This document shows positions 14,591 to 42,110 of a stretch of 42,110 nucleotides of DNA, in pieces. Under the pieces are notes generated by a model. It had not been told where the DNA came from. It did not search any database and saw nothing but the letters and a program-made list of their open reading frames with translations. The stretch is from Bacilli bacterium (GTDB lineage Bacteria > Bacillota_I > Bacilli_A > RF39 > UBA660), in NCBI GenBank assembly GCA_017477845.1, contig JAFUTR010000002.1, positions 1-42,110 of the forward strand, read 5' to 3'. Each line of letters begins with the position of its first letter. Position 1 is the stretch's first letter. The position numbers and the translations under genes were made by a program.

Positions 14591-14620
14591 AAGAAAGTTT
14601 AATATTTAAACTTTCTTTTC
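14591..14620. terminator. Bidirectional terminator between convergent genes
   Basis: A perfect 12-bp inverted repeat (14591-14602 with 14606-14617) with a 3-nt loop lies between the AAA+ gene and cotJC. T-rich sequence follows on the plus strand and A-rich sequence precedes it, so it can serve both. It overlaps the last codons of cotJC. Confidence 0.85.
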
Positions 14621-15166
14621 TTTTGAATATATTTCTGCAAGTTCTTTGAATCTGTTAAAATGAACTATTTCTCTTTGTCTTAACCATAAAAGTGGCCCAA
14701 TTACATCTTCGTCTTCTGTTAAATCTATTAGATTTTCATATACAGCTCTTGCTTTTTGTTCGGCAGCCATATCTTCATATAAATCTGCAATAGGATCACC
14801 AGTAGTAGCAAAGTATGTTACAGTAAAAGGAACACCATTGGAATCAGTCGGATATAATGCTCTATTATGTTCAGCATAATGACTTCCTAATCCAACTTGT
14901 TCAAGTTCTTCAATAGTAGCATCTTTGACTAATTGATATATCATAGTAGAAATCATTTCAATATGTGCAAATTCTTCTGTTGCTATATCTGTAAGAAGAG
15001 CTTTACCTCTATTATCTGGCATTGTATATCTTTGATTTAGATAGCGAAGAGCAGCTCCTAATTCTCCGTTTGATCCACCATATTGTGTAACTAGATATTT
15101 TGCCATTTTCAAATCTTTTTTCTTAATGTTAATAGGATATTGTAATTTTTTTTGATATTGCCACAT
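14606..15166 (-). CDS. cotJC: CotJC, manganese-catalase-type spore coat protein
   Basis: This 186-residue protein is close to the usual ~189 residues of CotJC. It is a ferritin-like helical bundle of the manganese catalase family with the expected di-metal ligands visible: the Glu of G-E-L-G-A, the Glu/His of T-E-E-F-A-H-I-E, a Glu in A-A-E-Q-K and the Glu/His of R-E-I-V-H-F. In Bacillus it is a coat component made in the mother cell. It is the second gene of a minus-strand pair: its ATG is 1 nt after the stop of the CotJAB gene, and GGGAGGT overlaps the end of that gene. Its presence hints at, but does not prove, sporulation. Confidence 0.92.
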   Translation of the reverse strand: MWQYQKKLQYPINIKKKDLKMAKYLVTQYGGSNGELGAALRYLNQRYTMPDNRGKALLTDIATEEFAHIEMISTMIYQLVKDATIEELEQVGLGSHYAEHNRALYPTDSNGVPFTVTYFATTGDPIADLYEDMAAEQKARAVYENLIDLTEDEDVIGPLLWLRQREIVHFNRFKELAEIYSKEKKV

Positions 15167-15167
15167 G

Positions 15168-15581
15168 TTATTCTACCTCCCAAGGGAAATTTGTATTTAC
15201 CCAACTAAAAGGTATTTGATTTTTGATACTGTTGTTATTAATTGGCCCATATTTTTCTTGATAAGTATTTAATAAGTCATTATATGTACTTTGATAATTT
15301 GAATATAAATTTAATGCTTGCTCATTATTAGGATAAACATCTAGATATAAATTTAATTCATGCATAGCAAAACATATTTGATTAATGTTAAAAAGAAGTT
15401 CTTCTTTATCAGAATTTATTTTTATTGTACTTGGTTTATAGTTTTTATATTCACTATATAAATTTTTAAATAAGTTGCCTTTTAAATAGCCTTCATATGA
15501 ACCAAACAAACTATCTATATTATTTGGGCTCATAGGCATATTATAATTATTAAAAGGCTCATAATAGTTGTAATTCATCAT
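15168..15581 (-). CDS. cotJB: CotJA-CotJB fusion, spore-coat-type protein
   Basis: This 137-residue protein is longer than ordinary CotJB (~85-90). Residues about 50-137 are CotJB: the M-H-E-L-N-L-Y-L-D segment, the E-K-Y-G-P motif and the C-terminal W-V-N...P-W-E end. The N-terminal ~50 residues carry G-Y-L-K-G-N-L-F-K-N-L-Y followed by Y-K-N-Y-K-P, resembling the C-terminal part of CotJA, so the gene looks like a CotJA remnant fused to CotJB. Two adjacent ATGs are possible (15581 or 15578); GAGGAGG is very close and better spaced for the second. It is followed by cotJC with 1 nt between, preserving the usual A-B-C order. Confidence 0.85.
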   Translation of the reverse strand: MMNYNYYEPFNNYNMPMSPNNIDSLFGSYEGYLKGNLFKNLYSEYKNYKPSTIKINSDKEELLFNINQICFAMHELNLYLDVYPNNEQALNLYSNYQSTYNDLLNTYQEKYGPINNNSIKNQIPFSWVNTNFPWEVE

Positions 15582-16174: not shown

Positions 16175-17050
16175 TTATTTTTTTTTGCAAACATCAATAA
16201 CAAATTCACAAAATGTTAAAGATGAATTCAATACCAACAAAGCATGATGTCTATCAATATTAATTCTGCTTAATGAACCATGTGAATCACTATAATTATT
16301 TCTCATTTCAGATACTGATTGAACGATTGTTTCTAATCCACCTAATAGTTTTTTAATTCTAATATCAGCGGTATTATCCAAACTCATATTATATAATTCT
16401 TTATATTGCTTATAAAGATCTATTAAATTACCATTATCTTTTGGATTTACTCCCTTATTACTTATTAACTCTATCAATACATCTTCCATCATTGTTCTTG
16501 ATTTAGTAATTACATTATCATAATTACCATTATTTAATTCTTCTAAGGCTTTATTATGTAATTTATGAACATATTCATTATTTATTTCTTCTATATTTTC
16601 TACTTCTATTACTGGTTCTTCATCTCTTTTTTTATAAATAATCTTATAATTAGAAACTACACTTAATTCATAGCCATCAATGTATAGAATAGTATTTATT
16701 TTTTGAATCACTTTCCAAAAAATATCAAAGTAGAATTCTTCCATCTCTCCAATATCATTAAATTCTGATAAAATATCACGAAAGTTATCCTTGCTAAATA
16801 TATAAGTTAGGAAATCATTTAATTTATGATTTTTAATAATATAGTCTAATAGTTTTTCATAAAATTGCCATCTTGAAAGTTTACCTAAACTATAGTTTAT
16901 ACTGCAACCAAATTTCTTTGCCAACTTAAATATTTCAGGACCTGATATTTTAGGCATTCCATTTGAAAATAAACCATATGTGCTTTTAATATCTTCATCA
17001 CCAATAAGAATATTTATTATTTTCCTATTTTTTAACAAATCATAGTTCAT
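16175..17050 (-). CDS. Abi_C-domain protein, candidate HEPN-type phage defence protein
   Basis: In this 291-residue protein the C-terminal ~125 residues match the abortive-infection C-terminal (Abi_C) pattern: helix with K-S-R-T-M-M-E-D (about 181-188), then L-L-G-G-L-E-T-I-V-Q and M-R-N-N-Y-S-D-S-H-G, ending with a hydrophobic helix. R250-x6-H257 fits the HEPN R-x4-6-H ribonuclease motif. The N-terminal half has I-S-G-P-E-I and S-R-W, seen in other Abi_C proteins as I recall. No signal or membrane segment is present. GGAGGT precedes the ATG. It is divergent from the gene at 17156 within the tRNA-His island. A likely role is infection-triggered growth arrest by RNA cleavage; this is inferred. 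Confidence 0.75.
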   Translation of the reverse strand: MNYDLLKNRKIINILIGDEDIKSTYGLFSNGMPKISGPEIFKLAKKFGCSINYSLGKLSRWQFYEKLLDYIIKNHKLNDFLTYIFSKDNFRDILSEFNDIGEMEEFYFDIFWKVIQKINTILYIDGYELSVVSNYKIIYKKRDEEPVIEVENIEEINNEYVHKLHNKALEELNNGNYDNVITKSRTMMEDVLIELISNKGVNPKDNGNLIDLYKQYKELYNMSLDNTADIRIKKLLGGLETIVQSVSEMRNNYSDSHGSLSRINIDRHHALLVLNSSLTFCEFVIDVCKKK

Positions 17051-38569: not shown

Positions 38570-39547
38570 ATGAATATAGCAATTATTGGAACAGGAGCAT
38601 ATGGAATAGCACTAGCATTAATGTTTCATAAAAATAACAATAAAATTAGTATGTGGACTAAATTTGAGGAAGAAAAAGAAAGAATTATAAATGAAAGAGA
38701 AAACAAAAAAGTTCTTCCTGGAGTAAAAATCCCAGATGATATTACTATATCAAATGATATTGAAGAAACAATTAAAGATAAAGAATTAATTGTAATTGCA
38801 GTTCCTGCAGGTTTTGTTGATGATGTAAGTTTTGAAATAGGGAAATATTATCAAGATAATCAATATGTATTACTTGCTAGTAAAGGAATTGAAAGAAATA
38901 GTTGCCTTTTTGTAGGAGATATTTTTAAACGTCATGTAAAAACGAAAAAATATGGGGTTATTTCAGGACCATCTTTTGCAGTTGACATGGTAACTAATTG
39001 TCCAATTGGTTTAACTATGGCAAGTGGAAATAAAAAAACAAGATTAGTTGTAAGAAAAGCATTAGAAAGTGACTCAATAAAGATAAGAGAATCAAGAGAT
39101 GTTATAGGAGTAGAAATCTGTGGATCAATAAAAAATGTAATTGCAATAGCAGCAGGAATGCTTGATGGAATGGGTTATCCTGAATCAACTCAGGCAATGT
39201 TTATAGTAGAGTCACTACATGATATAAAAGAATTGATAAGTAAACTTGGTGGAGATAGAAAAACAATATTATCTTATGCAGGATTTGGAGATTTACTTTT
39301 AACTGCAACAAGTAAAAAATCAAGAAACTTTTCATACGGAAGACTTTTAGGATCAAAAGCTCCAAAAAGTGAAGTAGAAGCATATGTATCTACAACAACA
39401 ATAGAAGGATTATATACAATCCAATCAATATATAAATTATTAAAAAATAAAAGAGTTAGAATTCCAATTATTAATTTAATTTATGATATCATTGAAGGAA
39501 AAAAGAAAGTAGATTCATTACCAGAATTTCTTATTAATAAAAAATAA
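38570..39547 (+). CDS. gpsA: GpsA, NAD(P)-dependent glycerol-3-phosphate dehydrogenase
   Basis: This 325-residue enzyme makes sn-glycerol-3-phosphate from dihydroxyacetone phosphate for phospholipids. The N-terminal Rossmann motif is G-T-G-A-Y-G; S-K-G-I-E, S-G-P-S-F-A, the catalytic Lys in S-I-K-N-V-I-A and G-F-G-D-L-L-L-T-A-T follow in family order. C-G-S replaces the usual A-L-G before K-N, and the R-N-F-S-Y-G-R segment is slightly changed, so it is diverged but complete. TAGGTGATTT precedes the ATG. Confidence 0.93.
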   Translation: MNIAIIGTGAYGIALALMFHKNNNKISMWTKFEEEKERIINERENKKVLPGVKIPDDITISNDIEETIKDKELIVIAVPAGFVDDVSFEIGKYYQDNQYVLLASKGIERNSCLFVGDIFKRHVKTKKYGVISGPSFAVDMVTNCPIGLTMASGNKKTRLVVRKALESDSIKIRESRDVIGVEICGSIKNVIAIAAGMLDGMGYPESTQAMFIVESLHDIKELISKLGGDRKTILSYAGFGDLLLTATSKKSRNFSYGRLLGSKAPKSEVEAYVSTTTIEGLYTIQSIYKLLKNKRVRIPIINLIYDIIEGKKKVDSLPEFLINKK

Positions 39548-39620
39548 TTTATTTTACGTGAATTAAAAAAGTAAATTCAAGTTTAAAAAGAAAAAGATGT
39601 AAGACTAAAGCACATAAAAT

Positions 39621-39647
39621 AGATGTTCGAAATAGAACATCTTTTTA
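39621..39647 (+). terminator. Terminator after gpsA
   Basis: A perfect 8-bp stem (39621-39628 with 39635-39642) with a 6-nt loop is followed by TTTT. The 70 bases between gpsA and this hairpin show no gene. Confidence 0.8.
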
Positions 39648-39670
39648 TATTATATTTTTGAATTATTTTG

Positions 39671-39700
39671 TTGTATAAAATGCCTATTTAATGCTATTAT
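39671..39700 (+). promoter_or_regulatory. Promoter of the surface-protein gene
   Basis: TTGTAT (39671-39676), an 18-nt spacer and TATTAT (39695-39700) with a TGC extended -10; AGAAGGGAG and the ATG at 39739 follow. Confidence 0.55.
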
Positions 39701-39738
39701 TATATTATAAAATAATCTAATGATAGAAGGGAGTATTT

Positions 39739-42110
39739 ATGAATAAAAGCATAAAAAGAAAATATAAACAAATGATGCTTCTTTTACTTATGATATTTAT
39801 TCCTTTTATAAGCATTGGTTATTCTGCTTTATCTACTCTTTAAATATTAATAGCGATGTTTTAATTCCTGGAATACCCACTTTATATAACGTTCTAGCTC
39901 ATGAAGCAAGTATTGGAACGTATGCAAAAGAATATACTGGTGCTCATCAAGATAGTATGGCAGGAGTGGGAGATAAAGCAATATATCATTGGTATGCACC
40001 TACTGGTAGTGGAAATACATTAACAAATGAAATACTTGATAAAAATAATGTAATTTTTGCTAATCAATGTTGGCAGATAATAAGAACAACAGACACAGGA
40101 GGAGTAAAATTACTTTATAATGGTGAAGCAGTTAATAATCAATGTTTATCTTCAAGGACTATTCATAAGGTGCCAGATGGGGCGAATGGATCTACAAAGA
40201 ACTTAAATGGAGATTATATCTATGGAACGAGTTACACTTATGATAAAACAAATAGTACATTTACATTAACTGGAATAAAGACTACAGTAAGATGGAGTGA
40301 TTCTACTTATAAGACTATATTAGGAAAATATACATGTGCCACAGCAAATGATACTTGTACAACACTATATCAAGTAAATGGATATAGTAGTTCAACTACT
40401 GCATATACATCAAGTTTTACAGTTAAAAATGTTTATCATAAATCTATAGGTTGGAGCCCTTTTAATGCAAATTCTCACTCTCTTGCCATGGTGGGATACA
40501 TGTATAATGATGTATATAATAATTTGCTTTATGCAAGTACCACAACTCAAAATTTTACAACTACTCAAACATTATTTTTTAATACTTCAATGGCCACAAC
40601 ATATAAATATTCAAAAGCAATAAACTTTACAGGAAGTACATATGAACTAATAGATCCAATACTTGGAAGTGAAATACCAGAAACAGATTATAGTGGATAT
40701 TACACATTTAGAAGTGCAACAACAGTATCAGGAACAGACCCATATTATATAGTAGGATTAAACAGTGTAACAAGTTACTATTATGTAAGATTATCAACTA
40801 AAAAACAGAAAAGTGATTTTGATATAATGATAGGAGATTCTATTACTGATAATGGAAATAATACTTATACTATAAATAATCCAACAAGAATATCAGTAGA
40901 TGATTGGTTCACAAATTATGCTAATTATTTAAATAAATATACATGTGGGGATTTAACTACGACATGCACAAGTCCAAGATATTTAACCACTACAACAAGA
41001 ACATATTATACATATTTAAATGCAAGTGAAAAGATATTAATTGCAAAAGGAAGGAATGGAACAAATCTAACAGATACACTTACATTAGGAAAAGATGAAT
41101 TAATAGGTAATAGAGCAAATTATAGTGATTATAAGTATACATGTGGTGATACCAGCAATACATGTACAGAAACAAACTTAAGAATGATAACAGCATATAA
41201 TGCAACAGGATATAAATATGTTCCAAATCACTATTGGGGAAGTAGTGTAACATGGGATGGAACAAATTATACGCTTGTAGATCCAATAGAAATAGAAAAT
41301 TATAACAATACGACAAACTTATCAACACATCATTATATGTGTGTAGATAATGGATTAAAAGTATGTTCACAAGTTGGATATGTATATTATTTATTTGGAA
41401 CAACAATGTATTACATACTACTTGAAAATGGGAAAGAAGTAGATGATGCATTAAATGAAATGTTATATAATGATGATGTAAATAAATATAATTCTACAAT
41501 TAAAGGTAGTATTGATGCGTGGTACGAGATGAATATGCTTCCATATGATGAATATTTAGAAGATACAATATTTTGCAATGATAGAAATATAATCAATGCA
41601 GAAACAAATGGATGGAATCCAAATAGCGGGGATCTTTCAACTACTATAAATTTTAAGGAAAGTACAAATACAACAAATTTAAGCTGTTCAAATATTACGG
41701 ATCGATTTAGTGTGAGTAATAATAAAGCAAAGTTAACATATAAAGTAGGATTAATGAGTGCACCAGAGATGCGATTGCTTGAAAATAATAATTTGAGGAC
41801 TACTGGTGACAATTATTGGGAAATATCTCCATTGTATTTTACCAGTATGTCACATAATGCAATTGTATATTATTCTGGCAACCAGATGCCTGATGTAAGC
41901 CTTACCGTAAGTGTTCGCCCAGCAGTTTCATTAGCGCCCAATATAGAATACGTTTCAGGTGACGGAAGTATGGCTAATCCATATATTGTAGATGCTCCAC
42001 CTATTAATGTATCTAATGCAAGTTATGCTTATGGAGATCCTGAAAACTCTACTACGACTACTGATTACACAACTCTTAATAAAACAGTATTTATGAGACT
42101 TAAAGATGGA
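39739..42110 (+). pseudogene. Large secreted surface protein, frameshifted in its signal peptide, 3' end outside window
   Basis: An ATG at 39739 behind AGAAGGGAG opens a 34-codon frame ending at TAA 39841: K-R-K-Y-K then a hydrophobic stretch and I-G-Y-S-A-L-S-T, a signal peptide. From 39843 another frame is open for 756 codons to the window end without a stop or a good start, continuing L-N-I-N-S-D-V where homologues, as I recall, follow on from S-T. A single base lost near 39835 would explain this. The body is Thr/Tyr/Asn-rich with four Cys-pair segments (C-x6-7-C), W-Y-E-M-N and Y-L-E-D-T...C-N-D-R motifs, and V-R-P-A-V-S-L then S-G-D-G-S near the end, the style of DUF6273-like surface proteins of gut Firmicutes. 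Sequencing error, true decay or recoding are all possible. Confidence 0.75.

Follow-up and report, generated by a model that had tools for sequence, protein, structure and literature searches.

The window analysed here, 42,110 nucleotides in length, is one contig (C6) of a 1.56-Mb genome assembled in 61 contigs, and copies of the gene discussed below are named by their contigs. Near its 3' end, on the forward strand, an open reading frame at 39739-39843 comprises 34 codons and a TAA at 39841-39843; its 34-residue product, MNKSIKRKYKQMMLLLLMIFIPFISIGYSALSTL, was judged by eye to be a signal peptide, and its start, ATG 39739, has AGAAGGGAG immediately 5' of it. The 5' neighbour on the same strand is gpsA (38570-39547, assigned by Pfam). 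A second forward-strand frame, taken to be the body module of a secreted protein, runs for 757 codons without a stop from 39840 to 42110 and off the contig; it is stop-free from 39768 onwards, or 781 codons. The body occupies register 0, one back from the signal peptide, which occupies register 1. These features agree with the sequence-only reading of the window, which had placed the end of the signal peptide at TAA 39841 and had described a long frame that is open to the window end and lacks a start codon with a ribosome site. The earliest ATG, GTG or TTG in the body frame is ATG 39957, with CATCAAGATAGT 5' of it, in which no ribosome site could be seen by eye; a second upstream start in the long frame, which that reading had named as evidence to the contrary, is thus absent. 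An internal restart at ATG 39957 was rejected because no ribosome site was seen and because its product would be without a signal peptide.

The nature of the break becomes clear by comparison with paralogues in the same genome. Over 190 alignment columns, the window's leader plus signal-peptide DNA has 93.1-96.3% identity to that of C56, C11, C13 and C14. In alignments of the copies, each of these four has one base more than the window at the frame-loss site (39830-39845, forward strand), and all four stay in one frame through it, reading G-Y-S-A-L-(S/T)-T-T-L-N-I-N and continuing directly into the body. Because four paralogues this similar run in frame and are each one base longer, the frame break in the window is not a matter of chance. 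The sequence-only reading was right that one base is missing relative to homologues, but the base that it chose, a T, is not the one indicated by the alignment, and the paralogues read S/T-T-T-L-N-I rather than the S-T-S-L-N-I it had expected. A 401-bp region round the site has full-length matches in C56 (80%) and in C11, C13 and C14 (78%), while only its later part is found in C54, C35 and C39; 74 bases of it match C58, and three short pieces occur elsewhere. C58, whose signal peptide is related but diverged (54% across those 190 columns), is likewise in frame.

The body module is present in ten copies in this genome (C6, C39, C54, C56, C35, C11, C14, C16, C58 and C13), three of which are visibly broken: C6 by the frameshift, C56 by an in-frame TAA, and C16, which is split into pieces of 162 and 180 aa. 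C39 seems to be cut at its 5' side by the start of its contig, and its 5' end was left out of this judgement. The TAA of C56, a copy that also has the 3' repeat described below, falls late in the body (L041:3638-3640). On the 5' side of C56 (L041:199-1461) are two small ORFs of 207 and 201 aa, in which a signal-like N-terminus is followed by a GALSSTLNV / AALSTTLNI motif; neither gave a Pfam match at E 0.1.

Beyond this genome, a profile search from the body alignment recovered 65 loci in other metagenome-assembled genomes (MAGs), and a contig scan with a single body sequence as the query recovered none. By their record titles, 27 of the 65 are from the gut of goats, sheep, roe deer or yaks, 22 are RUG or hRUG isolates, which we take to be rumen genomes, and 16 are other metagenome bins. 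Most are titled Bacilli, Erysipelotrichaceae, Bacillales or Firmicutes, with one Clostridia and one 'uncultured bacterium'. The family is known otherwise mostly from Bacilli MAGs of the ruminant gut, and the source bacterium is probably also from an animal gut. A body match was seen in 7 of 12 genomes of the same genus, the present one included, at no more than 57% identity outside our own genome. When the leader was scanned against IMG/VR, a scan from which very near records may be omitted, there were no matches. The N-terminal region could be followed in 62 of the 65 loci, giving 69 copies, a few of which may be counted twice where loci overlap on one contig. By a simple hydrophobicity test, 62 of the 69 show a start and a hydrophobic stretch that share the frame of the body, and inspection by eye adds L133 to these; three are truncated at an edge, and in three (L089, L090 and L093) signal peptide and body no longer share a frame. 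These three losses, found in two MAGs (RUG12568 and RUG12586), appear by eye to be larger internal deletions in the linker domain, at positions other than that of the window; the deletion in L090 may fall between short direct repeats. With 62 or 63 of 69 copies in frame and three losses located elsewhere, fusion of signal peptide and body is the rule in this family, and decay recurs.

An intact body behind a stopped signal peptide could also be read through. The sequence-only reading had raised recoding at C-TTT-AAA, and programmed -1 frameshifting, or a bypass of the stop, would join signal peptide and body; a shift at the last codon would yield a fusion product close to the expected length, and the body is intact. 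However, the codons of CTTTAAA (39838-39844) are in register 2, out of register with both the signal peptide and the body, and no strict X XXY YYZ slippery heptamer is present in the signal-peptide frame over 39739-39843. The predicted RNA fold of 39826-39946 has z = +0.50, with 133 of 200 shuffled sequences folding at least as well, so that no notable stimulatory structure is indicated there by the fold score, a test that covers structures other than pseudoknots. Our search for recoding consisted of strict heptamers and RNA folding, and on both counts, together with the register, recoding at C-TTT-AAA was rejected. No shift at all is required in the four paralogues that have this leader, and we regard a programmed event here as highly improbable. 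We suggest that a register check and a look at intact paralogues settle suspected slippery sites of this kind fast.

Phase variation by slippage at a short repeat was also considered, since in phase-variable surface genes the switch commonly lies between signal peptide and body, and the position of the break fits that arrangement. The repeat that defines such a switch, one of the readings proposed from the sequence, is lacking at the site: the longest homopolymer within 39826-39850 is three bases and none exceeds five in 39739-39868, no tandem array was found in 39600-40000 at score 30, and there is no direct repeat of at least 8 bases in 39800-39880. No weight was given to a pair of weak palindromes (82%, AT-rich) that overlap each other at 39834-39853. 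A slippage switch was rejected for these reasons, and its probability appears negligible.

A further explanation is that the cells carry an in-frame gene and that the base was lost in assembly or consensus calling, for example when reads from near-identical 5' cassettes, belonging to different paralogues or strains, were merged. The site lies inside a cassette that has four relatives of 93-96% identity, the contig ends in a repeat, and C6 and C14 are only one base apart over 33 signal-peptide codons, which makes a merging of reads conceivable. The manner in which the contigs overlap speaks against an error of this kind. There are 122 contig tips, 8 of them with N, and among the rest 48 pairs have an exact common end of at least 20 bases; the common end is exactly 141 bases in 21 pairs, 136 to 140 in 26 and 34 in one, and never longer than 141. 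Tip-to-tip overlaps likewise measure exactly 141 in six cases and are shorter otherwise. Overlaps that reach 141 and never go beyond it point to a de Bruijn assembly of short reads with k = 141, the largest default k of the short-read assembler MEGAHIT. Short-read data seldom contain single-base indel errors outside homopolymers, and with no homopolymer longer than three at the site such an error is unlikely. As an additional, weaker control, Pfam was run on 38 of the window's 51 listed ORFs (leaving out the body and nested or opposite-strand ORFs); 27 matched at the thresholds applied, no profile was split over two neighbouring ORFs, and the 11 without a match are uninformative. Moreover, in the 190 columns compared the window differs from each of the four paralogues, although a mixture of several would still be compatible with this. 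We therefore consider an artefact unlikely and infer that the allele is real in the cells, although a consensus error or a minority allele would also be compatible with the sequence.

The gene continues beyond the window, as it is the contig and not the body that ends at 42110. The last 141 bases (41970-42110, forward strand) are the same as the end of C56 and, by exact end matches, lead into two further contigs, C34 and C50: one 141-base sequence forms the end of both C6 and C56, another forms the start (reversed) of both C34 and C50, and the tips overlap by 109. This would correspond to an exact repeat of 173 bp (141 + 141 - 109), within which the window ends and through which two upstream contigs appear to be joined to two downstream ones. 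C6 and C56 are identical in these 141 bases, yet have only 76% identity over 2486 aligned columns. Beside the repeat, C50 carries lysS and C34 carries obg. A gene with a lysS N-terminus follows gpsA in four of nine same-genus loci, judged by eye, and other genes do so in the remaining five within the stretch covered. Since gpsA precedes the broken gene here and gpsA-lysS order is seen elsewhere, C6 would be continued in C50, and the rest of the gene most likely lies on that contig, before lysS. The open frame on C50 has 121 codons, 36 of which overlap C6, and the further 85 would bring the body to about 842 codons. Elsewhere in the window, on the minus strand, are a gene with an abortive-infection C-terminal domain (Abi_C; 16175-17050) and CotJB with a manganese-catalase-like neighbour, presumably CotJC-like (14606-15581).

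The condition of the body bears on the age of the break. In 757 codons, 380 of the 6813 possible single changes would create a stop, and the lack of any stop limits the body to at most about 54 substitutions, or 2.4% neutral divergence, at the 95% level, given equal odds for all changes and no selection. Because the body is stop-free over its 757 codons, the change of frame is recent. The dN/dS of the body against other copies (C39, 0.25; C54, 0.28; C56, 0.22; C35, 0.47) describes mostly the time before the frame was lost. Codons unique to one of four copies were split between synonymous and non-synonymous as 37/34 in C6, 18/4 in C39, 10/15 in C54 and 36/42 in C56, and the unique codons of C6 show no excess of change over those of C56. 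An intact body is, however, equally to be expected of a silent copy that can be reversibly restored.

That possibility leads to the 5' cassette, which comprises the promoter/leader, ribosome site, signal peptide and first mature residues and is common to the window (39661-39893, forward strand, delimited by blastn) and the four paralogues. Counted from the ATG, the blastn matches span -78 to +154 in C13 (93.6%), -75 to +154 in C14 (93.1%) and -118 to +154 in C11 (90.9%), and the match to C56 extends beyond the cassette into the body. The segment that C6 and C56 have in common with C11, C13 and C14 thus covers at least about -75 to +151 round the ATG, at 91-94% identity. Even third positions are conserved: over 33 signal-peptide codons, 29-33 are identical in the four pairs that include C6 and 28-33 in all ten pairs, and C6 differs from C14 by a single base. 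In the bodies, by contrast, third positions differ at 39% between C6 and C56 and at 51-53% between either of these and C11 and C14. As the first 0.7 kb of the bodies of C11, C13 and C14 agree at 90-92%, these three count as one, and it is three body groups, not five, that are contrasted here. In all, five copies carry a near-identical leader-signal-peptide cassette of 230 bp on bodies of three strongly diverged groups. Such a mosaic means that the 5' end has either recombined or evolved in concert.

One could go further and suppose that the broken gene is a silent member of a recombining surface repertoire, in which 5' cassettes are swapped and a broken copy is re-activated by gene conversion from an intact one. 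The near identity of leader and signal peptide, down to third positions, in C6, C56 and C11/C13/C14 on bodies that differ there by 39-53% is what this would predict, as are the common 141-base ends of C6 and C56 despite their 76% identity and the fact that copies are broken at different places. The broken copies would then be a silent reservoir, whose homogenised promoter-leader-signal-peptide cassette and common 3' segments would allow gene conversion to switch bodies on or off; if true, this would be a surface-variation system in commensal gut-type Bacilli. C11, C13 and C14 are, however, complete ORFs, each with its own cassette, and therefore give no sign of a single expression site; their bodies form one group; and concerted evolution of a useful leader would give the same pattern. 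We therefore hold re-activation of the broken copy to be improbable, and a working reservoir of this kind seems to us equally doubtful.

We favour ordinary recent damage to the gene as the most likely explanation, ahead of a switch or of an unconventional readout of the gene. A recent one-base change right after the signal peptide, just ahead of the stop, would have inactivated one member of a multi-copy family whose proteins are large, modular and secreted: translation would begin at ATG 39739, the signal peptide would be made, and termination at 39841 would leave the exported protein absent. We infer that the body protein is not present in the cells. A recent inactivating one-base frameshift in a member of a recombining family, whether as a young pseudogene or as a null allele carried by the sampled strain, is thus in our view the probable state of this locus. 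Recent damage had been among the explanations put forward from the sequence, and it is borne out by the four in-frame paralogues, the undecayed body and the two other visibly broken copies. By itself, the broken gene is one more recently inactivated copy. We believe that the part deserving study is the 5' cassette on divergent modular bodies, which suggests recombination among the surface genes of gut-type Bacilli.

The protein is most aptly described as modular and as secreted or located at the surface, a prediction drawn from its sequence and that of its relatives. Among the titles and opening parts of abstracts surveyed, no title treating this family was found. An AlphaFold2 model of the body, built with 17 sequences, has a mean pLDDT of 78.0 and a pTM of 0.66; compared with the PDB, it had no neighbour at E 0.001 (104 matches at E up to 10, the best at 0.034), and the body profile found none among PDB sequences at E 0.01. 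In the paralogues, the same module stands alongside VWA domains (C39 and C35), Listeria-Bacteroides repeats (C58), DUF285/PARCEL repeats (C11, PF03382; C14, TIGR02167) and a BsaA-type SipW-dependent N-terminus (C54).

Several known groups of proteins can be compared with it. DUF6273 proteins are similar in that PF19789 is matched at E 0.01 by 3 of the 17 aligned relatives, with a best E of 1.3e-05; the window body, in contrast, has neither that match nor any other in Pfam at E 0.01 and so falls outside the group by this measure. The SipW-dependent (BsaA family) biofilm matrix proteins have a parallel in C54, where the body module is preceded by an N-terminus that matches TIGR04090 (79.7 bits; cut-off, 60), whereas the window body, in the part up to the contig end, has no NCBIfam match at E 0.1. 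Surface proteins with PARCEL repeats (DUF285) are described for Mycoplasma and Listeria in PMC2996958; such repeats are carried by C14 and C11, which have the 5' cassette in common with the window and a body that has diverged, while the window copy up to the contig end does not match them. As in antigenic variation by gene conversion, homologous cassettes (91-94%, about 230 bp or more) and 141-base ends are found on divergent copies, but the single expression site with silent copies that marks those systems is not seen, C11, C13 and C14 being complete. As in a pseudogene, the frame is disrupted relative to intact homologues, all four cassette paralogues being in frame, and no rescuing alternative start or recoding signal was found among starts, slippery heptamers and folds. 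From the frameshift pseudogenes familiar in paralogous surface-protein families of bacteria, the present case, which concerns one genome of the species, differs in no point of principle: a single base has been lost in one paralogue with in-frame relatives in the same genome, and other copies are broken in other ways.
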